Shown one piece after another: positions 253-50,225 of a stretch of DNA of 51,181 bases; the stretch's first letter is position 1; every line of letters starts with the position of its first letter. The position numbers and the translations under genes are program-made. The stretch lies in the NCBI GenBank assembly GCA_017469405.1, contig JAFUGL010000012.1:1-51181 (forward strand), given 5' to 3'. The notes beneath the pieces were generated by a model. The model was not told where the DNA came from and did not search any database. It saw nothing but the letters and a program-made list of their open reading frames with translations. The DNA is from Lachnospiraceae bacterium (GTDB lineage: Bacteria; Bacillota; Clostridia; Lachnospirales; Lachnospiraceae).

Positions 253-271
253 GACCGCAAGAGCGATCCTA
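244..271 (-). terminator. Intrinsic terminator at the end of the cobalamin gene run
   Basis: On the minus strand an AGGATCGC / GCGGTCCT stem (251-270) closes a 4-base loop and is followed by ATTTTTT (244-250). It overlaps the cbiB stop codon, so it would end the long minus-strand cobalamin transcript. On the plus strand the same hairpin has no T-run, so it is unlikely to stop the HTH gene efficiently. Confidence 0.7.
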
Positions 272-1225
272 TAACATACATATAAAAATAAACGATAATA
301 ATAATTCGCATAAAAACGAAGTTATATAAAGCAAAACATTTGCTCTCTTTATATCTTCAAAAGAAACCTTTCTTATATCGTCTCCAATATAATCCTTTTT
401 TACAAGTTTTCCAAAATAATACGCATCTCCCGCAAGCCTTATACCCAATGCACCTGCACATACACTTTCAGTTTGAGCCGAATTGGGACTTGCATGATTT
501 CTACTGTCTCTTTTATATATCCTATATGCATTTTTTCCATTAAAATCCTTACCGGATATAAAACTTGAAACAATCATAAGATATGCACTTATTCTGGATG
601 GAATATAATTGACAACATCATCAAGCTTTGCAGCACATCTTCCAAAATATAAATATTTATCATTTTTATATCCTACCATGGAATCCATAGTATTGATTGC
701 TTTATATAAAAATCCAAGTATGGGACCGCCCAAAGCTGTATATATCATTGGTGCTATGCATCCATCAGATGTATTTTCAGCAACTGTTTCAATAGCTGCC
801 TTTGCTACACCTTCTTTATCAAGAGGTTCAACATCTCTTCCAACAATCATTGAAACCGCTTTTTTTGCACCTTCAAGATCATCATTTTTGAGCTTTTTAT
901 ATACCTTCATACTTTCAACTTTCAGACACTTAATACTAAGTATCTGATATGTCATAATTATTTCAATAATCATCCCCGCATATACATTTATATAATATCC
1001 AAACAGCAAAATAAAAGCTGTCAATATGCCGGTTATCAAAATAACAGTTACTACCAAAAACTTTCCATTACGAAGTGCTTTTTTTTCATCTTTATTATTC
1101 CATTTTTTTTCAAATAAACCGATAAGCGCACCTATGGCTCTTATCGGATGTGGCCATGAAACAGGATCACCTAAAATCAAATCCAGTAAAAAGCCTGATA
1201 TAAATGCTATCAAATGATATTTCAT
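269..1225 (-). CDS. cbiB: Adenosylcobinamide-phosphate synthase CbiB/CobD
   Basis: This integral membrane enzyme attaches (R)-1-amino-2-propanol O-phosphate (or a related amino alcohol) to adenosylcobyric acid, giving adenosylcobinamide phosphate. The N-terminus carries the hallmark 'LDLILGDPVSWPHPIRAIG'. The middle has 'AVSMIVGRDVEPLDKEGVAK' and 'ETVAENTSDGCIAPMIY', and the last third has 'RDSRNHASPNSAQTES', all typical of CbiB. Several hydrophobic segments fit a polytopic protein, and 318 residues is the family's normal length. Its ATG overlaps the stop of the upstream AAA+/protease gene by 4 bp, indicating translational coupling. It is the last gene of the riboswitch-headed run and ends in a terminator. 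Confidence in the enzyme is very high. Confidence 0.97.
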   Translation of the reverse strand: MKYHLIAFISGFLLDLILGDPVSWPHPIRAIGALIGLFEKKWNNKDEKKALRNGKFLVVTVILITGILTAFILLFGYYINVYAGMIIEIIMTYQILSIKCLKVESMKVYKKLKNDDLEGAKKAVSMIVGRDVEPLDKEGVAKAAIETVAENTSDGCIAPMIYTALGGPILGFLYKAINTMDSMVGYKNDKYLYFGRCAAKLDDVVNYIPSRISAYLMIVSSFISGKDFNGKNAYRIYKRDSRNHASPNSAQTESVCAGALGIRLAGDAYYFGKLVKKDYIGDDIRKVSFEDIKRANVLLYITSFLCELLLSFIFICML

Positions 1226-4200
1226 TTTTTATAAAATTCCTTATATATTTTCACAAATTCATCTCCGGACAACTCTCCATTTATATCTTTGTCGTCAAGG
1301 AGCTTGTTCGCAAGGTATTCTATAAAATCCTTCTTTTCTTCTATTATTCTTGTAGCTCTTGCATCCTCGTCCTTAAGTATAGACATAGCTGTAGTTTTTC
1401 CGATTTCACCCATAGCATAAATTTTAATCATGTTCTCAGCATATTTTTTTGCTCTTCTATAATCACTTGAAACACCGGTAGTATTATATCCGTAAAAAAC
1501 TCTTTCAGCATTGCGTCCCGCCAAAAGGATAGCGATTTCATTTCTCATATCAAGTTCAGACATATTTCCACCGGTTCTTTCAGGTAGTTCAACTCTTCCA
1601 AGACTTCCTACCTTGCCTTTGGCACTGATGGATTTCGGTATATAATTATTAATGCTGCCTTTACTTGTTTCAAGTCCTGTAACATACATTACAACTGCGT
1701 GACCACACTCATGAATTGCTGTTTTCTTAATCTCCTCTTTAGTAATCTTCGCAGGATCATAGAGCTTTGATCTATTTGCAGCATTTTCAATTATTTCCTT
1801 ATGAGTCGGTATATCAGCCACAGTTATATCTCTATATTTTTTTACATTATTAATGTCAAACCTTGCGGCACGCTTAAGCAAAATCTGGTGCATTACACGA
1901 TCAACAAATCTTCCGTTTCCAAAATTAGGCACGGAGCTGAAGAAATACATTATATCATGTACCTTTTTAAGTGCAGCATCACTTGTTTTAAAGCCTGAAG
2001 CAGCCATTTTCTTTTTATAGATTTCAACCAGTTCATCAGGTTTATAATCCTCAAACTCAAAGGTGTAACCTATTCTTGAGCTAATACCCGGATTCATATT
2101 AAGAAAATCCTTCATTTCTTCTGTATATCCAGCAAATATAACAATTAAACTATCCTTCTTTTCTTCCATAGCCGTAATCAGCGTTTCTATGGCTTCATGT
2201 CCGAAACCTTTATTATTTCCCGCACTATCATCCAGAGAATATGCTTCATCTATAAATAGGACACCATCCGTCGCTCTTTTAATAACCTCATCGGTTTTCA
2301 TCGGTGTCTGTCCTACATAACCGGCAATTAAATCCTTTTTTTCTACAACCGTCAGCTTATCTGTTTTCAGTATTCCTATGGAATATAATTCTTTAGCTAT
2401 CATCTTGGCAACAGTTGTCTTACCGGTACCCGGATTACCTGTAAATAACATATGCATTGAAAAATCCGAAATCTTTATTCCACGATTACTCAGATATTTT
2501 TGATATGTTACCTGGTTTTTAAATTCCTCAATTTTATTTTTTATATTATTAAGGCCAATCATATCTTCCAGCATAAAGCTTGCATCATCGGAATTTTTTT
2601 CAGCAATGTAATTTCCGAAATCCTCGGATTTAATTATCTTTTCATCAAAGGATTTATTAATCATTCTGCTGGACCAATTTCGTCTGGCTTCATCATATAT
2701 ATTTCTGACATCTCGTGCATTACCAAAAAACTTTTCTGCACGTTTTTTTCGAATTGCATCCTCTAAAACCTGATCTGCTGCATTATCCAATTCAAATCCA
2801 TCTTCTCTTAACCATTTATAAAAAATCTCTTTTAAATTTTCTATTGAATAATCTTCAAATTTTATTTCAAATGCAAATCTGCTCTTTAAACCCAGGTTGC
2901 TTGCCAAGAGTTCTTTCATCTCATCTTCATAGCCGGCCATTATTACAACCATTCTATCAGGATTGTTTTCCATTTCCGTTAAAAGCGTCTGAAGGGCAAG
3001 CATACCGTTTTCACTACCGTTTACAAATCCGTAGGCTTCATCTACAAACAGTATTCCACCGGTAGCCTCTTCAATTTTTTGCATCATTTTTCTGACAGAT
3101 ACATTTCTCCATCCCGACACAATATCTGTAGGCTTTACTTCTATGACCTTCCTTTTCTCTGTCAAGCCCATTGAAAAAAACAAATCACCCATTTTTCTTG
3201 CCACAGTTGTTTTTCCTGTTCCGGGATTACCTGTAAACAACATATGAAGAGGTCTTTTTCTTTTATCACCTTTCTTTTTATCTTCTTTTTTACCTTCTCG
3301 CTTAGCTTTTTCGCTTTTATCGTATAATAACCCGGTATATATGCCTCTTACGGTTTCTGAAACTTTATTCAGTCCTACCAAATCATCCAGTGATCTTAAA
3401 ATCATCTCCGGAGTTTGAACATCTGAATTATACTTTGGTATGCAATCCGACGCTATGATTTTTTCATCTCTGATCTTAGCATAGTAAAGAGAATATATAC
3501 GATTTCTTAAATCTACAGCAAATCTATCGCCCTTCAGCTCTGCTTCATCATAGACAGCATCCATATACTTTTTCAATTCAGTTTCAAAATCTTCTGAAAA
3601 TTCAAAGGTTTTATCTTCCTTTAACAATACCAGACATCTATTATATACCTGTTCCTTCGTCATAGGAATAACTCTTACATGATGACGGAAGGTTCTGTAA
3701 TATAGCTCCGTATTTTTTCTAAAGCTTTCCCATACATACTGATTTGTTACAATAACAAAAGAAATCTCCGGTTTTGCTTGTGCAGTATCCACTATCAGTT
3801 TCCACAACCGATTAAACGTTTTTCCGATTTCAATTTGTTCAATCATTGCATTTCCTGTAGAAGCTGTTTCAAAATCAAGCTCCGGATGCGCAGTAAAGCT
3901 TTTTATGCAAATTATATTTTTATCATCTACGCCCTGTAAAAGATCATCAACTGATTCTCTGTTTATGTTGCGTGTTTTCCATTTGTCACTATCCAGAATT
4001 GTATATTTTTTATCATCACCTGTGATCGCCTTTGCAAGCTCTGCGATAATTGAATCAGAAAAATCCGCTTCATCAATAGATAAAATAAGATTACTGTATG
4101 GAAAAATTGTTCCGTTTTTTGTATTAATATCATTATTTATCTGAAGTTTTCCGATAACAAACTCATCTATCCTTTTTTTACCTTCATCTGACAGATTAAA

Positions 4201-5592
4201 ATCAATTCTATCCTGACTTTCATGCAATGAATTTAATCTGGTGATTATTCTATTTTTTCTTGCCTCGTTACGATCTATATGTATGGTTTTACTTTCATAA
4301 TCCGGATTTAATTTATACTCATAATCTTCTGTTTTATCTGAAAACAATTTATCAAATAAATCCATTACCGAATCAAGCACGCCGGGCAGAATCTTTTCCT
4401 CTTTAAAATCATTTTCATATAATCTTCTTAATATAAATCCATAGCTGTTGCTAATATAATAATCTACCGTTTCATCAATAGTTTCTGCATCACTCATCAA
4501 TTTAATAAAAGCATCATTTTCTTTCATCCATGCTTTTTGCAATTTTGTTCCTTTAAAATAATAGTCAACAAAGAACCTTTTATTATCCTTTTTATTCCAA
4601 AAATTCAAATTATCAATATAATTGCAACGGACGAATTCGGCAAACTCCTCCTGATTGTAGAAATCTGCTACTAAACTTTGCGCCTCCGAAATAGCATATA
4701 TATTTTTATTGGCCATATGAATTTCCGAATTCAGCATATTATAAACATCAGACAAAATTATCCATAAAACATCATCATTGTTCCATAAGGATTTATCAAT
4801 CATATTTACATCGTCTATACCGTCGTCCGGTAAACTTTTAAGTATAGCTTTTGCAATTCTTGACAACTCATAAGAATTAACAGGATATACATTATGAACC
4901 ATTTCAACCAATCTATCTATCGCTCTTCTTTGATACAAATTTATTCTATCAACATTTATCATTTCAATTTCATTGATAACCTTAGCAGTTAAAGATCCGT
5001 TCATATTATAAAATTCACATAATTCAAACAAATCAATATCTTTTCCCGAATCCGGATAAAGATAGTTAAATAAAACAACAGAAATTATACACTCAGTTAT
5101 TAAACACTGCGCATCATAACTTAATTCATCTATATGGCTTAAATCATTCTGATAGTTAGAGTAGTATTCTCTTACCTCATCTTTAGCATACTTATCGGCA
5201 GGCTTTTGAGCATCAAATTCGTCTCTATTGTATATATATACATTTCTTTCAAGAATATCAACATATGACATTCCACCCATCAACAAACCATATGTCAAAT
5301 CATTTACATAATAACTGCTTCCCAGACATAAACCTATTCTTTTTAATGCTGTAGCAAGCAGAATTTCATTTTTATTGAGTACGTACTTATTTCCCACATA
5401 TGATTCAATCACAGAAAAATACTTGATTAAGTTTTTCAATTCAAAATATAAAGATAATAAATACTCATCCTTTTCTCTATCAGTACCATTACTGTTAGAA
5501 TCCTGTAAACTTTTCTCTGAATCAACCATACTTACAGCCTTCAAAATTATGTTCTTTATTAAGCTCTTTTGTTTATCAATTGATTTACTCAT
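1222..5592 (-). CDS. Giant tandem AAA+ ATPase (CbxX/CfqX type) fused to an FtsH-like M41 metalloprotease
   Basis: This 1456-residue protein has an N-terminal part of about 480 residues that I do not recognise, then a stretch (about 490-700) that looks like an AAA domain without a Walker A. Two complete CbxX/SpoVK-type AAA+ modules follow: Walker A GNPGTGKTT at about 787-795 and 1051-1059, Walker B LFVDEAY / LFIDEAY at about 848 and 1111, and Arg-finger segments GLKSRF and GISSRI. The C-terminus is an M41 peptidase with HECGH at 1294-1298, and the segment AGRNAERVFYG...SSDYRRA supplies the third zinc ligand (Asp at about 1377). FtsH proteases carry one AAA domain and N-terminal membrane helices; I see no membrane helix here. 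It overlaps the genes on both sides by 4 bp (ATGA junctions), inside the cobalamin operon. The domain call is firm. Its role, perhaps remodelling or degrading a B12-related protein, is inference only. Confidence 0.9.
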   Translation of the reverse strand: MSKSIDKQKSLIKNIILKAVSMVDSEKSLQDSNSNGTDREKDEYLLSLYFELKNLIKYFSVIESYVGNKYVLNKNEILLATALKRIGLCLGSSYYVNDLTYGLLMGGMSYVDILERNVYIYNRDEFDAQKPADKYAKDEVREYYSNYQNDLSHIDELSYDAQCLITECIISVVLFNYLYPDSGKDIDLFELCEFYNMNGSLTAKVINEIEMINVDRINLYQRRAIDRLVEMVHNVYPVNSYELSRIAKAILKSLPDDGIDDVNMIDKSLWNNDDVLWIILSDVYNMLNSEIHMANKNIYAISEAQSLVADFYNQEEFAEFVRCNYIDNLNFWNKKDNKRFFVDYYFKGTKLQKAWMKENDAFIKLMSDAETIDETVDYYISNSYGFILRRLYENDFKEEKILPGVLDSVMDLFDKLFSDKTEDYEYKLNPDYESKTIHIDRNEARKNRIITRLNSLHESQDRIDFNLSDEGKKRIDEFVIGKLQINNDINTKNGTIFPYSNLILSIDEADFSDSIIAELAKAITGDDKKYTILDSDKWKTRNINRESVDDLLQGVDDKNIICIKSFTAHPELDFETASTGNAMIEQIEIGKTFNRLWKLIVDTAQAKPEISFVIVTNQYVWESFRKNTELYYRTFRHHVRVIPMTKEQVYNRCLVLLKEDKTFEFSEDFETELKKYMDAVYDEAELKGDRFAVDLRNRIYSLYYAKIRDEKIIASDCIPKYNSDVQTPEMILRSLDDLVGLNKVSETVRGIYTGLLYDKSEKAKREGKKEDKKKGDKRKRPLHMLFTGNPGTGKTTVARKMGDLFFSMGLTEKRKVIEVKPTDIVSGWRNVSVRKMMQKIEEATGGILFVDEAYGFVNGSENGMLALQTLLTEMENNPDRMVVIMAGYEDEMKELLASNLGLKSRFAFEIKFEDYSIENLKEIFYKWLREDGFELDNAADQVLEDAIRKKRAEKFFGNARDVRNIYDEARRNWSSRMINKSFDEKIIKSEDFGNYIAEKNSDDASFMLEDMIGLNNIKNKIEEFKNQVTYQKYLSNRGIKISDFSMHMLFTGNPGTGKTTVAKMIAKELYSIGILKTDKLTVVEKKDLIAGYVGQTPMKTDEVIKRATDGVLFIDEAYSLDDSAGNNKGFGHEAIETLITAMEEKKDSLIVIFAGYTEEMKDFLNMNPGISSRIGYTFEFEDYKPDELVEIYKKKMAASGFKTSDAALKKVHDIMYFFSSVPNFGNGRFVDRVMHQILLKRAARFDINNVKKYRDITVADIPTHKEIIENAANRSKLYDPAKITKEEIKKTAIHECGHAVVMYVTGLETSKGSINNYIPKSISAKGKVGSLGRVELPERTGGNMSELDMRNEIAILLAGRNAERVFYGYNTTGVSSDYRRAKKYAENMIKIYAMGEIGKTTAMSILKDEDARATRIIEEKKDFIEYLANKLLDDKDINGELSGDEFVKIYKEFYKK

Positions 5593-6257
5593 TTTTTCCT
5601 CCGTATAGATTGTAATTTTCCTTCAACAAATTCAAGTACGTATCCTTCCCCGTTTTTCACCTGAAAATCAAAGAAGTCTTTATCTGTAAGATTGCTTAAA
5701 ACAGCCATGATTGTTCCACCATGAACAACTGCCGCAGCTTTTAATTCCTTTGAAGATTTTTCCTCTTTAAACAAAGGATAGTTTTTTTCAAATTCCGAAC
5801 CGACAAACAGATTGTGCTTTACCATGTAAAGCTCACAAACACCTAAACATTTTTCAAGGCCTATTAAGGATCTGTTAATGAATGAATAAAGCATCTCTCC
5901 ATCAGGTATTTCACCTTTACATCCCGAATCAACCCAGGCTTTGTATGAAGGATTATCAGCAAGTTCCTTATAATCCTTTCCCTCAAATTGTCCGAAATTG
6001 ATTTCCTTCCATTCATTTATTACTTTTACGGTCTGATTTGGAAATAATATATCTGCAGTTTCTTTACACCTTAACATCGGACTTGCAAAAATCAAATCAT
6101 ATCTTCCGTAAATGTTTTTCTTTTCCTCTATCTCTTTAATACCTTTTTCAGAAAGAGCCTCATCAGTCCAGCCGATATATTTTTTTTCATCATTAAGTCT
6201 TGTACTGCCATGACGTATCAAAGTTAAAACTATTTTTTCTTTTACAGAATCATCCAT
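5589..6257 (-). CDS. cobC: Histidine phosphatase, probable alpha-ribazole phosphatase (CobC-like)
   Basis: The protein belongs to the phosphoglycerate-mutase-like histidine phosphatase superfamily. The phospho-accepting histidine lies in LIRHGSTRLN (about residues 13-22). It continues with YIGWTDEALSEKG, the segment 'FASPMLRCKETADIL', the acid 'NFGQFEGKDYKEL' and a second histidine in AAVVHGGTIMAVL. In cobalamin assembly CobC removes the 5'-phosphate from alpha-ribazole phosphate or adenosylcobalamin phosphate, the last step of nucleotide-loop assembly. The assignment to this substrate rests on the context among cobU, cobS, cobT and cbiB; the fold alone would also allow a broad-specificity phosphatase. 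The ATG has a GGGGGA site 8 bases upstream, and the 3' end overlaps the AAA+/M41 gene by 4 bp. Confidence 0.85.
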   Translation of the reverse strand: MDDSVKEKIVLTLIRHGSTRLNDEKKYIGWTDEALSEKGIKEIEEKKNIYGRYDLIFASPMLRCKETADILFPNQTVKVINEWKEINFGQFEGKDYKELADNPSYKAWVDSGCKGEIPDGEMLYSFINRSLIGLEKCLGVCELYMVKHNLFVGSEFEKNYPLFKEEKSSKELKAAAVVHGGTIMAVLSNLTDKDFFDFQVKNGEGYVLEFVEGKLQSIRRKK

Positions 6258-6323: not shown

Positions 6324-6731
6324 TTATTTTATCCTTTGTCCTACCCCACAGGTTACCCTTATAACCTCATCAGCATTTTGAGCAAGCATACACTGAAACC
6401 TGCCTGTTTTTTCCCTATAAATTCTTTCATTTTTATCGATAGGAACAATTCCGTTTCCTACCTCATCGGTTATGATTATAACATTATTAAATTTACTGAG
6501 TATATTTCCCAACAGTTCTTCCGGATCTTTTCCATCGTCCAATTCCTTTTTTATCAGACTGTTTATATTATTTAATATAATCTGTCTGTCTGAAAATAAA
6601 CCGTCAGAATATCTTTCAAGCTCTGCTATATCCTCTACTTCAAAATCAAAAATATCATCTCCCCCTGTCTGATATTTTTCTTTCACGTATTCAAGCTTTC
6701 CCTGTGCATAACCACCGATAACTAAAATCAT
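6324..6731 (-). CDS. Short CobU paralogue with a degenerate P-loop
   Basis: This 135-residue protein aligns with CobU (adenosylcobinamide kinase / guanylyltransferase) over its start and its end. It begins MILVIGGYAQGKLEYV, where CobU has a GGxxSGKS P-loop, so the Ser/Thr after the lysine is missing. It ends with DEVGNGIVPIDKNERIYRE...GRFQCMLAQNADEV, which is strongly CobU-like (EvGxGivP...R..G...q.lA..AdeV). The middle is shortened, and the RHxxRR-type segment carrying the guanylylated histidine is absent. A full-length cobU is present two genes upstream, so this copy may be regulatory, may act with another subunit, or may perform a partial reaction. An AAGGAG site lies about 13 bases before the ATG, an unusually long spacing. 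The family is sure; the activity is doubtful. Confidence 0.8.
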   Translation of the reverse strand: MILVIGGYAQGKLEYVKEKYQTGGDDIFDFEVEDIAELERYSDGLFSDRQIILNNINSLIKKELDDGKDPEELLGNILSKFNNVIIITDEVGNGIVPIDKNERIYREKTGRFQCMLAQNADEVIRVTCGVGQRIK

Positions 6732-9483: not shown

Positions 9484-10272
9484 CTACGCCTTCAAATCCT
9501 TTTTGGTATACTTCACATATGCTATAACAATACCTACAACCATAAATACCATACCGATTAAAAGGTACATAACATTTATTGATTTATCATTAATTATGTC
9601 CGAACCGTCAGTGTAACCGTAAGGTGTAATATACTTTAAAAAATCAGCCTTATCGGATATGTTAGCAATCAGATTCAGGAAATAAAAAGCAGCCGTTATT
9701 CCGATTCCTATACCTATCCCGGAACTGCTTATATACGCAGAGATTCCAAAGCATATTCCACCTATTTCAAGCTGCATCATAAGCTGCGCAAAATGATACA
9801 AAAGAATCTCTGTCCAAATAATCTTCTCTCCTATTGCAGCCATCGATAAAACGGCAAGGCAAAGGATGATAATATTCATCAAAACAATCATAATAAAAAC
9901 AGATATAAGCTTTTCGGTTATAACCTTTTTTCTTGATACCGGATGCGTAAATAAAAACTCCGCAGTTCTTTCCTTTTCTTCCTTCATAAGCGCTGTCACT
10001 CCCGATATCGCAGCAAAGAAGGCTCCGCCTATACCAAGTATATTTCCGCACTCAACAGCATAAAACCCGATAAGTGTTCCGAAGTTTAATTTATCCATAC
10101 CAAAGGCAGATGAAAATGTACCCATAGATGCAAATACCTTTGTTGCCTCATCCATTTCATTTTTCATCTCAGGATATAAGAATATACAAGCCAGAATAAA
10201 AAATCCTATAGCTGCTGTCCATATAATAAATGCACCCTTGTTTTGTTTTAACTCATGCTTTAAAATAATCAT
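9484..10272 (-). CDS. ABC-2 type permease
   Basis: This 262-residue protein has about six hydrophobic segments and the layout of an ABC-2 export permease. It starts MIILKHELKQNKGAFIIW, has a long extracytoplasmic part near residues 35-60, and has the cytoplasmic loop KEEKERTAEFLFTHPVSRKK (about residues 94-113), typical of permeases where TAEFL..hPvsR contacts the ATPase. It ends in a single helix and a lysine-rich tail. The gene directly upstream on the same strand encodes its ATPase. The substrate is unknown; drug, peptide or sodium export have all been assigned to this family. It lies among the cobalamin genes, but nothing in it points to corrinoid transport. Confidence 0.88.
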   Translation of the reverse strand: MIILKHELKQNKGAFIIWTAAIGFFILACIFLYPEMKNEMDEATKVFASMGTFSSAFGMDKLNFGTLIGFYAVECGNILGIGGAFFAAISGVTALMKEEKERTAEFLFTHPVSRKKVITEKLISVFIMIVLMNIIILCLAVLSMAAIGEKIIWTEILLYHFAQLMMQLEIGGICFGISAYISSSGIGIGIGITAAFYFLNLIANISDKADFLKYITPYGYTDGSDIINDKSINVMYLLIGMVFMVVGIVIAYVKYTKKDLKA

Positions 10273-10365
10273 TCTCCACTTGTCTCCCCACAGTTTTCTA
10301 AATTCTTTTATTTTTTACTTCATATAAGTAAAAATCAAAAATTCATATTTAATCACTCACATAAC

Positions 10366-11232
10366 TTACGCTTCATAATAATTCATAAAAATTTCTTCCA
10401 AGGTCGGTTCTGTTATCGTAAGGTCTTTTATTTCACTTTCTGACATAAGCCTAAGAAGCTTCTTTATATCACCCGTATATAAAAAGCTTGTTGTTCCCTC
10501 GTTTTGCTGTAAATCCGAAACACCCTTAAGAGTCGTTGTATCAAAAGTACCTGAAAATGTTATTTTTTTAGCTCCAGTTTCTTCAAGCTTTTCAACCTTA
10601 TCGGATACAATAATTCTTCCGTCTTTTATAAATGCTGCCGTATGGCAATAACTTTGCACCTCCGAAAGAATATGTGAGGATAAGAATACTGTTGAACCGT
10701 TACTGTTTTCTTCAGAAAGTATCTTGAAAAATTCCTTTTGCATAAGGGGATCAAGGCCCGAGGTTGGTTCATCCAATATCAAAAGCTTAGGCTGATGCTG
10801 TATGGCACAGATTATTCCGACCTTCTTTCTGTTACCAAGTGAAAGTGCATCCACCTTTTTGGATGTATCAAGATTTAATCTTTCGCACAGCTCCTCTGCT
10901 TTTTTGGAACAATCCTTTTTCCTCATATCAACAGAAAGCTTAATAACCTCTTTAACGGTCATTTTGTTGTAAAAGTTGATTTCAGAAGGGAGATATCCTA
11001 TGCTGTCAAGGATTTTATCATGGTCACCTACTATATCCATATCGAATATTGAAGCCTCGCCGGATGTAGGTGCGATGAGTCCAAGCAATGTTCTTATAGT
11101 AGTTGATTTGCCTGCACCGTTTGGTCCGATAAAGCCAAAAAAATCCCCCTCATCCACAGACAAATTCAAATTCTCAATACCAATTATGTCCCCGTATTTT
11201 TTTTTCAGATTATTCGTCGTAATTGCTTTCAT
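10366..11232 (-). CDS. ABC transporter ATP-binding protein (ABC-2 exporter type)
   Basis: This 288-residue protein is a complete nucleotide-binding subunit. Walker A is GPNGAGKSTTIRTLLG (about residues 35-50), the signature motif is in 'LSLGNRKKVGIICAIQHQPK' (LSLGN in place of LSGGQ, as in many exporters), Walker B is LLILDEPTSGLDPLM, and the switch histidine is in VFLSSHILSEV. The C-terminal 70 residues form the extra domain common in BcrA/NatA-type subunits. The start has GGGGAGAG 8 bases upstream. It is 93 bp from its permease. The unit interrupts the cobalamin genes and probably exports something unrelated. Confidence 0.92.
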   Translation of the reverse strand: MKAITTNNLKKKYGDIIGIENLNLSVDEGDFFGFIGPNGAGKSTTIRTLLGLIAPTSGEASIFDMDIVGDHDKILDSIGYLPSEINFYNKMTVKEVIKLSVDMRKKDCSKKAEELCERLNLDTSKKVDALSLGNRKKVGIICAIQHQPKLLILDEPTSGLDPLMQKEFFKILSEENSNGSTVFLSSHILSEVQSYCHTAAFIKDGRIIVSDKVEKLEETGAKKITFSGTFDTTTLKGVSDLQQNEGTTSFLYTGDIKKLLRLMSESEIKDLTITEPTLEEIFMNYYEA

Positions 11233-18763: not shown

Positions 18764-18984
18764 AATAACATTTCCTCCTTTAATGTGATACAAAACAAGT
18801 ACGAAAATAAAATCCACTCTTATCCGTTTGTTTTCCCGTTATTATACTTCACAGAAAAATCCTCCATAAAGTAAAATAGTCTTCCACATAAGCGTAAAAG
18901 ACATTAAAAGAAGAACCCGAAATAATTCGTGTTTTAACGGTACGATTAATGCCTCGTAATCCGGGATTTTATCCCTGTACCCTA

Positions 18985-19180
18985 AATAATCGGCAGGTTT
19001 CCTGGCTTAAGCATCCTCATACAAGATATACCTTCCCAATAAATAAATTATCAGTGGCTGCAAAAATATGCTGTTGACACATATAATTGCACATATCCCA
19101 TACTCCTCTAATACAGTGACGAGATCGTGCAGGATTCACACCTGCTTCCCTTTTAACGTCAAGACCTTTCATATGCAGCA
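18985..19180 (-). promoter_or_regulatory. Cobalamin riboswitch
   Basis: Read on the minus strand the leader contains the family's conserved elements in order: GGTCTTGACGTTAAAAGGGA (about 19148-19167), GGTGTGAATCCTGCACG with CGTCACTGTA (about 19105-19145), GCCACTGATAATTTATT, GGGAAGG, and the B12 box AAGCCAGGAAACCTGCC (18992-19008). Ends are approximate. Downstream of the box a GGGATAAAATCCC hairpin inside a GGTAC/GTACC stem may be the expression platform. It controls cbiK and probably the genes after it, which would be switched off when cobalamin is plentiful. The 609-base gap between cbiK and the nitroreductase gene is essentially filled by this leader, its promoter and one terminator. Confidence 0.93.
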
Positions 19181-19257
19181 TCAATATTTAAAATGAAATA
19201 AGCATAATCTTCGTCTATCGGCACCGACTACCGCATGTATCTAATTTTCATTCGCAT

Positions 19258-49295: not shown

Positions 49296-50162
49296 TCACT
49301 TATACAATAACATTGATTTCCAACGATAAGGAAAATCCAAATGTTGCATAGATATGTATGATTTATATTTTTTTACCAGCTTTATCAAAGGTTTTACAAA
49401 CTTTTTGTTCCATTTATCATGGTCAGGATATAACATTTTCAATGTATAAAGTTGTGCAAACAATCTTCGTGTAGGAATATACTTTTCACTCTGAGGTATT
49501 TTAGGCAAAGCAGGAAAAATCCAATAATATAATCTTGCATAATGTGCACATCTATTTCTTAAGTCTGTTAAACACCTCAACCAACTTTCCAATGTTTGGT
49601 AATTTACACCATAAATTTTCGAAGCAATAGCTGCTTTATCCTGATTATGCATATCTTTATAAAAATATGATAGCATTCCTACAGAGAAGAATTCTATTAT
49701 AACCCAAATAGAAAAATGACCATTATACTTGTTTTGATGATGTTTAACAACCGATGAATTCGAGTTCTCTGATATACAACTATTCACTCGTTTCTTAAAC
49801 TTCACATGATTATGCCTTAAATTAAAATTATTAGCATCCATATAACCTTCCGAACCATATTTTTGAGCATGATAATACGAAAAAGAACCTCTTAAATAAA
49901 CCTCAATATCTTCTATGATACTTGCAATCAAATTACGTAAATCCGAATCAAATTCGTATATAGCTCTTAATTGTTCTATCGGTATTGGACTAAAACATTT
50001 CTTTTGACTTTTATCAATAAATGGAAGAAGATAACCCTTTAATCTGTAATAATTAACTGATTGAAGTATTTCTCTTGCAACAGATTCATCAGCAATTATA
50101 ATATTTTTATTTTTTAATTTACTAATTTGCTGTTTATAATTCTTTGGTGATTGTAACCGCAT
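49296..50162 (-). CDS. Abi_2 / AbiD-AbiF-family abortive-infection HEPN protein
   Basis: The hallmark of Abi_2 proteins, SVNYYRLKGYLLPFIDK, is at about residues 37-53, followed by AIYEFDSDLRNLIASIIEDI and EVYLRGSFSYYHAQKYG. The C-terminal half has the R-x4-H ribonuclease motif in LTDLRNRCAHYARLYYW (RNRCAH), the catalytic pattern of HEPN domains. At 288 residues it is family-length. I start at the ATG at 50162 because GGAGG lies 5 bases ahead; the reading frame continues upstream to 50198 but crosses a hairpin. Abi_2 proteins stop phage growth, probably by cutting RNA once activated. The gene has its own promoter-hairpin leader and lies 585 bases from the CRISPR array. Confidence 0.92.
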   Translation of the reverse strand: MRLQSPKNYKQQISKLKNKNIIIADESVAREILQSVNYYRLKGYLLPFIDKSQKKCFSPIPIEQLRAIYEFDSDLRNLIASIIEDIEVYLRGSFSYYHAQKYGSEGYMDANNFNLRHNHVKFKKRVNSCISENSNSSVVKHHQNKYNGHFSIWVIIEFFSVGMLSYFYKDMHNQDKAAIASKIYGVNYQTLESWLRCLTDLRNRCAHYARLYYWIFPALPKIPQSEKYIPTRRLFAQLYTLKMLYPDHDKWNKKFVKPLIKLVKKYKSYISMQHLDFPYRWKSMLLYK

Positions 50163-50167
50163 ATTAC

Positions 50168-50225
50168 CTCCAAAAAAATGTGCTCCCATTTTACACATCG
50201 TTGAGAGGTGTGGGAGCTCCTGTTA
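50168..50225 (-). ncRNA. Short structured leader RNA of the abi gene, possible abiF-type RNA
   Basis: On the minus strand a transcript starting about 7 bases after the -10 box would begin near 50225. It would fold GCTCCCACAC...GTGT...TGGGAGC (50182-50217): a 7-bp stem plus a CAC/GTG extension with a TAAAA bulge. It then runs into ACATTTTTTT (50171-50180), an intrinsic-terminator pattern, immediately before the GGAGG of abi. The loop bases ACCTC are complementary to the GAGGT of that binding site. Structured RNAs upstream of Abi_2 genes (the abiF motif) are known from comparative genomics; assignment to that family is inference. Confidence 0.6.

Follow-up and report, generated by a model that had tools for sequence, protein, structure and literature searches.

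Architecture of the fusion protein

The window analyzed here is a stretch of 51,181 nucleotides from a Lachnospiraceae bacterium (assembly GCA_017469405.1, contig JAFUGL010000012.1), and the gene under study, situated on its minus strand (1222..5592) between the cobalamin (B12) genes cobC and cbiB, encodes a fusion of CbxX-type AAA+ ATPase modules with an M41 peptidase domain in one intact chain of 1456 amino acids. The N-terminal region (residues 1-440; 4273..5592) is mostly helical in a low-confidence model, has no Pfam match, and retrieved nothing below E 0.08 from the PDB by phmmer. It is followed by a degenerate AAA module without a Walker A motif (residues 441-725; 3418..4272), AAA module 1 with an AAA_lid_6 (residues 731-1000; 2593..3402; Walker A at 3208-3231), AAA module 2, also with a lid (residues 1004-1270; 1783..2583; Walker A at 2416-2439), and the C-terminal M41 peptidase domain (residues 1283-1456; 1225..1746), which scores above the Pfam M41 cut-off. 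An HECGH motif (residues 1294-1298; 1699..1713) supplies the catalytic Glu and zinc ligands 1 and 2, and Asp1377 (1462..1464) is the third ligand. The original prediction, made from the sequence of the window, had described a chain of this length with no membrane helices that holds two intact CbxX-type AAA+ modules, probably a degenerate third, and an M41 domain with its zinc ligands, and our analysis confirms that architecture.

The fusion shares with FtsH the HExxH motif and the third Asp zinc ligand, but differs in having a motor from the CbxX group, with two intact AAA modules and a dead one, and in lacking a membrane helix (maximum hydropathy 1.52, vs 2.57 and 3.18 for the FtsH proteins of the same genome). 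It is also longer than the FtsH frames of that genome (620 and 690 amino acids), and reaches 77 bits with the FtsH model TIGR01241, whose cut-off is 600. The closest structural match is CbbX. Like CbbX, SpoVK and EccA, the fusion carries a sensor-1 GY, an Asn before the arginine finger, a sensor-2 Arg and an AAA_lid_6; unlike them, its motors are arranged in tandem, are joined to a peptidase, and fall under the NCBIfam equivalog cut-offs for CbbX, SpoVK and EccA proper (373.4 against 459.25, 414.6 against 422.95 and 349 against 466.65 bits, respectively, summed over two domains). In a 2023 preprint (PMC10659427), the first three of these features define the SpoVK/CbbX/EccA clade. All three are present in AAA module 1 of the window, although the Asn lies 6 residues before the Arg of NPGxxSR, whereas that text places it 4 upstream, so that the spacing as worded is not matched.

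Distribution and conservation of the fusion

At least 22 copies of the CbxX-AAA/M41 fusion, including the window's own, were gathered, nearly all from the window's class; all copy counts are lower bounds. Seventeen are full or nearly full, three are cut by contig ends (L038, L040, L083), and two are shortened. From a protein search of 61 genomes, nine copies were selected, belonging to 7 genus genomes. When a profile of their M41 regions was run against 37 genus genomes, these nine scored 239-289 bits, by construction, and no tenth copy was found, the next match reaching 106 bits; the fusion is thus patchy, being present in 7 of the 37. Among the matches listed in the family search (397 genomes) were three further copies, two from G712 and one from G530, and the class search (391 genomes) contributed seven, in G813, G1064, G995, G1111, G873, G1094 and G938; the weaker class copies score no higher than FtsH proteins and were separated from them by frame length and P-loops. 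A genome-contig scan with the 9-row alignment A1 gave three loci with a CbxX AAA followed by HExGH among the best 80 of 552 (L047, L048, L083). The L047 copy, labeled Lachnospiraceae by NCBI, is near-identical to the first G712 copy and lies at the same locus, which reduces the number of independent cases.

Other searches returned no further copies. The genome-contig scan with the 342-residue C-terminal stretch of the fusion found no relative. At the level of the order (E 1e-25, 392 genomes), only the window's own match exceeded 116.1 bits, as judged by bits and frame lengths rather than by opening every row, and at the level of the phylum (E 1e-40, 398 genomes) only the window's own protein was retrieved, with a cut-off that would miss some class copies (E 1e-34). 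In the plasmid and phage searches, 13 and 5 records, respectively, matched at 26-39% identity, most annotated ones being named FtsH, and the motif GNPGTGK was absent from all 6 frames of at least 700 amino acids with a P-loop and HExxH among 74 viral-contig loci.

The relatives are 25-43% identical to the window protein, and their catalytic residues are strongly conserved. HExGH and the third zinc ligand Asp are kept in 17/17 aligned copies and in all 5 partial ones, so that conservation of the zinc ligands, set beforehand as a test capable of refuting the original prediction, came out in its favor. The Walker A and Walker B motifs of AAA2 are likewise kept in all 17 aligned copies, as are its sensor-1 GY, its sensor-2 Arg and the Asn that precedes the arginine finger; the arginine finger itself is found in 16/17 and the pore-loop Tyr in 13/17. 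The number of intact motors per fusion varies from one to three: one intact Walker A occurs in L039, L041 and L337-L340, two in the window, L034-L037, L047, L331, L335, L336 and L048 (the last with one variant motif), and three in L334. Residues 1-440 show 22-25% identity to the three nearest full-length relatives, vs 54-65% in AAA2 and M41; as the fastest-changing part of the protein, this region behaves as expected of a targeting region. Taken from the sequence comparisons, the conserved residues and the fast-changing N-terminus support ATP-driven degradation of particular targets, and the M41 protease is probably active and soluble.

Ancestry of the motor and the peptidase

A quick maximum-likelihood tree built from 105 AAA domains grouped all 29 fusion AAA domains with 40 CbxX-type domains taken from M41-free frames (support 98), while FtsH and the peptidase-side AAA domains of the other fusion classes fell into another group (97). 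The CbxX rows were picked by sequence motif, with no named CbbX, SpoVK or EccA among them, and long branches were flagged. The placement of the motor, together with the missing membrane anchor, bears out the earlier view that the protein is not an ordinary FtsH. In a careful M41 tree, 22 fusion peptidases, 29 FtsH proteins and 9 class B and C peptidases are each set apart by a branch, with support of 92/46 for the fusions and 100/97 for classes B and C. Together, the two trees indicate an FtsH-type peptidase placed on a CbxX motor, and FtsH-like motors retained by classes B and C. With support of 92/46, a single capture is not contradicted, yet not demonstrated.

Class B proteins combine a Clp-like tandem AAA with M41 (L034:2607-6179, L211:6176-9625, L214:4877-8365, L215:4807-8301, L216:4510-7953, L217:6160-9873 and L341:2353-5847). 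They resemble the fusion in having two AAA modules and M41, in 1147-1237 amino acids, but differ from it in a peptidase-side AAA that groups with FtsH and in M41 domains that stand apart with those of class C. The first motor is AAA_2-like in L034, the sole member scanned with Pfam; L214 and L215 start, by reading of the sequence, with a Clp N-domain-like stretch, and one class B gene directly adjoins a CbxX-M41 gene in G012. Class C comprises two AAA-M41 genes (L212:2695-6813 and L212:16280-19999) of a single G031 cluster, which also contains a ClpP-like gene, a type IV secretion system (T4SS)-coupling-type ATPase and a split superfamily 1 (SF1)-type helicase with homology to the helicase that neighbors the CbxX-M41 gene of L035. 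A further M41 match (G161:C6:15285-15869) lies in a reported open frame of 24310 amino acids, probably a masked or artefactual stretch.

The cobalamin locus

The gene row containing the fusion is headed by a cobalamin riboswitch (18975..19184, minus strand) and runs riboswitch, cbiK, BtuF/C/D-type transporter, cobQ, ATP-binding cassette (ABC) pair, cobT, cobU, cobS, short CobU-like gene, cobC, fusion, cbiB. The upstream neighbor cobC (5589..6257) encodes a histidine phosphatase that scores under the cobC equivalog cut-off, and the downstream neighbor is cbiB (269..1225), both on the minus strand. As originally predicted, both overlap the fusion by four bases: the left junction, AAAAAATGA (5589..5597, minus strand), holds the overlap of the cobC stop with the fusion start, and the right junction, again AAAAAATGA (1222..1230, minus strand), that of the fusion stop with the cbiB start. 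Since it stands in a riboswitch-headed row, the fusion may be cotranscribed with it, and probably rides on the cob transcript.

In G008, the relative with the most similar cbiB, cobC (93% identical to that of the window) and cbiB (82%) overlap directly at ATGA, and the junction reads AAAATGA where the window has AAAAAATGA at both fusion ends; cobC also adjoins cbiB without the fusion in six further relatives (L188-L193). Given the empty G008 junction and the preserved overlaps, the place of the fusion among B12 genes is most simply read as a one-off clean insertion at a short stretch of shared sequence, both overlaps being kept, and we infer insertion rather than losses as the direction of change.

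The original prediction had further suggested that the protein could be an activase-protease servicing B12 enzymes or the biosynthetic complex; a recurrent link to cob/cbi genes would support this, and homologues consistently outside B12 loci would refute it. The refuting outcome was the one obtained. Among 246 open reading frames (ORFs) in 24 stretches around the 21 other copies, several of which end at contig ends near the gene, none gave its best BLAST match, the only one considered, to a cob biosynthesis gene from the window or G008. Apart from the fusion, matches to the window's gene row around these copies were generic, namely ABC ATPases and one transporter; an ABC-F-like protein, for instance, matches the B12-transporter ATPase at 25-27% identity. 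Conversely, no fusion lies within about 1.5 kb of cbiB at any of the 21 other genus cbiB loci, the window being the only such case among 22. The gene cbiB is present in 22 of the 37 genus genomes, some of them incomplete, and is not associated with the fusion (3/7 genomes with it vs 19/30 without; Fisher p 0.41). A Pfam scan of 28 hand-chosen proteins from other AAA-M41 loci, among them a class B fusion and three proteins encoded at the class C locus L212, detected no recognized B12-dependent enzyme; a generic MeaB match (E 0.004, under the cut-off) fell on an AAA_5 protein. With no cob genes at the other copies within the reach of their contigs and no fusion within about 1.5 kb at the other cbiB loci, a B12 function was dropped, and the fusion need not act on B12 proteins; what stands of the proposal is a tandem CbxX motor with a probably active, soluble M41 protease.

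Two other elements of the row were noted. A CobU paralogue of 135 amino acids between cobS and cobC (6324-6731) matches only the C-terminal part of the CobU profile and has homologues at 14 other genus cbiB loci; one was also recognized by eye in G008. The second element is a pair of genes for an ABC-2 permease and an ABC ATPase (9484-11232), with a similar-looking counterpart at the same place in G008 (L219:13394-15000).

Genomic context of the other copies

Many fusion copies stand singly beside unrelated genes, whose names derive partly from reading ORF starts. The G013 fusion lies near iscU/nifS-like genes and gapdh-pgk-tpi, the latter also found in G031; htpG and cysS-like genes flank the fusions of G031 and G009, and cysS that of G010; prfB and valS-like genes adjoin those of G712 and L047, fatty-acid-like genes that of L083, and an ABC-F-like gene that of G813. 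The HSP90 gene htpG is directly upstream of the single-motor fusion in G031 (L039:279-2252), and a homologue, partial at the contig end, lies shortly upstream of the G009 fusion (L041:7123-7644).

A different context was found in G032. Its two fusion copies lie 17 kb from each other, and the region that holds them also encodes two AAA_5 proteins, an SF1-type helicase, a T4SS-coupling-type ATPase and a PD-(D/E)XK nuclease joined to a UvrD helicase. In the clusters around the G032 and G012 copies, the other genes encode helicases, a helicase-nuclease, AAA_5 proteins or a further AAA-M41 protein, and a conflict role is possible for this subset. An all-against-all ORF comparison of 32 stretches gave only small sets, mostly synteny of near relatives, and no partner recurring in most loci; the sets that looked functional were those of the helicases and the T4SS-coupling-type ATPases. 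The latter (TraG/VirD4-like) occur near AAA-M41 fusions of all three classes (L036:14181-15554, L047:8235-9611, L212:10823-12070 and L217:13308-14000); the four were linked by BLAST, and three of them were scanned with Pfam. A ClpP-like gene lies near two (L047, L212). In the window, an abiF RNA (RF03085; 50181-50217) scores just over the gathering threshold by an ORF at 49296-50198 on the minus strand, perhaps an abortive-infection locus.

The PADLOC models IetA, TRIP13 and DolB match the window fusion in its AAA parts only (best 1.3e-16). The IetAS defense system pairs an AAA gene with the subtilase gene ietS. No subtilase was found among the nine window neighbors scanned with Pfam, so the IetAS pairing is absent there. 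FtsH-ternary conflict systems, as described in PMC7159879, resemble the fusion in placing an inactive AAA before an active one in a single chain, but differ in having an FtsH-type AAA in vWA-MoxR clusters; neither vWA nor MoxR was found among the same nine neighbors.

Proposed mechanism and alternatives

We consider it likely that the window fusion works on its own in the cytosol as an AAA+ metalloprotease, with a motor of the dedicated-chaperone kind driving an FtsH-type peptidase. The two intact CbxX/SpoVK-clade modules would form stacked ATPase rings that pull the substrate chain through their pore and into a ring of M41 zinc peptidase domains at the C-terminal end. Selection and docking of the substrate, or of its adaptor, would probably fall to the first 440 residues together with the ATPase-dead AAA module. 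We infer that such a protein would assemble as a hexamer, use ATP for threading, and act proteolytically on a narrow target. The broader proposal, that these fusions form a separate kind of energy-dependent bacterial protease in which SpoVK/CbbX-clade motors captured an FtsH-type peptidase, with one to three intact rings, fast-changing N-terminal targeting and a narrow target each, is one toward which we lean only slightly.

Several observations weigh against the metalloprotease reading. The Pfam M41 alignment covers only positions 3-114 of the 191-position profile, the predicted structure has a predicted template modeling (pTM) score of 0.46 and leaves domain placement and oligomer unpredicted, and the pore-loop aromatic is missing from AAA2 in 4 of the 17 aligned copies. 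The AAA tree, with the motif-picked rows and long branches described above, is a quick one, and support for a common origin of all the fusions is not strong in the M41 tree. Damage or reduction is apparent in two of the 22 copies: L332:1131-2111 begins at the Walker B of the last AAA (AAA2) and lacks everything before it, and in L333:7685-9259 (524 amino acids) the Walker A is altered and the N-terminus looks unrelated. G019 carries a broken tandem CbxX copy (L042:6584-9982) at the iscU/gapdh site that an intact fusion occupies in G013; the match of this broken copy to the window protein ends at residue 1268, before the peptidase, and no M41 match was found at that site. The window arrangement itself comes from a single metagenome-assembled genome of 138 contigs, with the end of the fusion gene 1.2 kb from a contig end.

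That assembly, and the absence of the junction from all 21 other genus cbiB loci, could indicate that the cobC/fusion/cbiB arrangement is a chimera. This appears exceedingly improbable: both junctions are four-base overlaps with genes 93% and 82% identical to the G008 pair, the G+C of the fusion (0.327) fits that of the row genes (0.316-0.394), and the gene has relatives in other genomes. An activase-protease dedicated to B12 enzymes or a B12 assembly complex would agree with the exact overlaps, with the riboswitch heading the row, and with the single targets ascribed to known CbbX-clade proteins in PMC10659427; the lack of cob best matches in the contig stretches around the 21 other copies, the single fusion among 22 genus cbiB loci and the lack of association between the two genes make it very unlikely.

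The protein could also be a remodeling chaperone whose M41 domain no longer cuts and, by analogy with FtsHi, would only build a ring, as the known remodeling role of the CbbX/SpoVK clade and the partial M41 match might suggest. We regard this as unlikely, since a dead M41 would not need the zinc ligands, which are kept across the divergent copies. An anti-invader (defense or conflict) system with the protease as effector seems doubtful, though it would account for the patchy presence of the fusion, for the G032 pair with its helicase, helicase-nuclease and AAA_5 neighbors, and for the T4SS-coupling-type ATPases found there, near L047 and near two other AAA-M41 loci. The PADLOC matches also point that way, but are confined to the AAA modules; moreover, many copies stand singly among housekeeping genes (iscU, gapdh-pgk-tpi, cysS, htpG, prfB-valS), and no partner recurs in most loci.

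Implications for AAA+ proteases

Descriptions of bacterial AAA+ proteases name only a few kinds, namely Clp, HslUV, Lon, FtsH and proteasome-like systems. By its sequence features, the fusion is probably an AAA+ zinc protease of a little-known kind, with a motor different from that of FtsH, and no published description of the CbxX-AAA/M41 family was found in the open-licence literature searched. According to PMC10659427, its authors saw no evidence of peptidase fusions or associations among members of the SpoVK/CbbX/EccA clade, which they suggest aid assembly and activation rather than degradation. Fusions that combine the clade's features with a peptidase contradict this lack of peptidase associations, and the proposed reading, if true, would overturn the stated rule that the clade is not peptidase-linked. 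As M41 proteases with extra rings and no membrane anchor, they would be useful for structural work. The interest of the locus thereby moves from B12 to the motor: a clade described as remodeling single targets has a peptidase-bearing branch with conserved active sites, which raises the question of whether an activase motor may become a degradation motor by the addition of a peptidase, and whether its single target is then kept.
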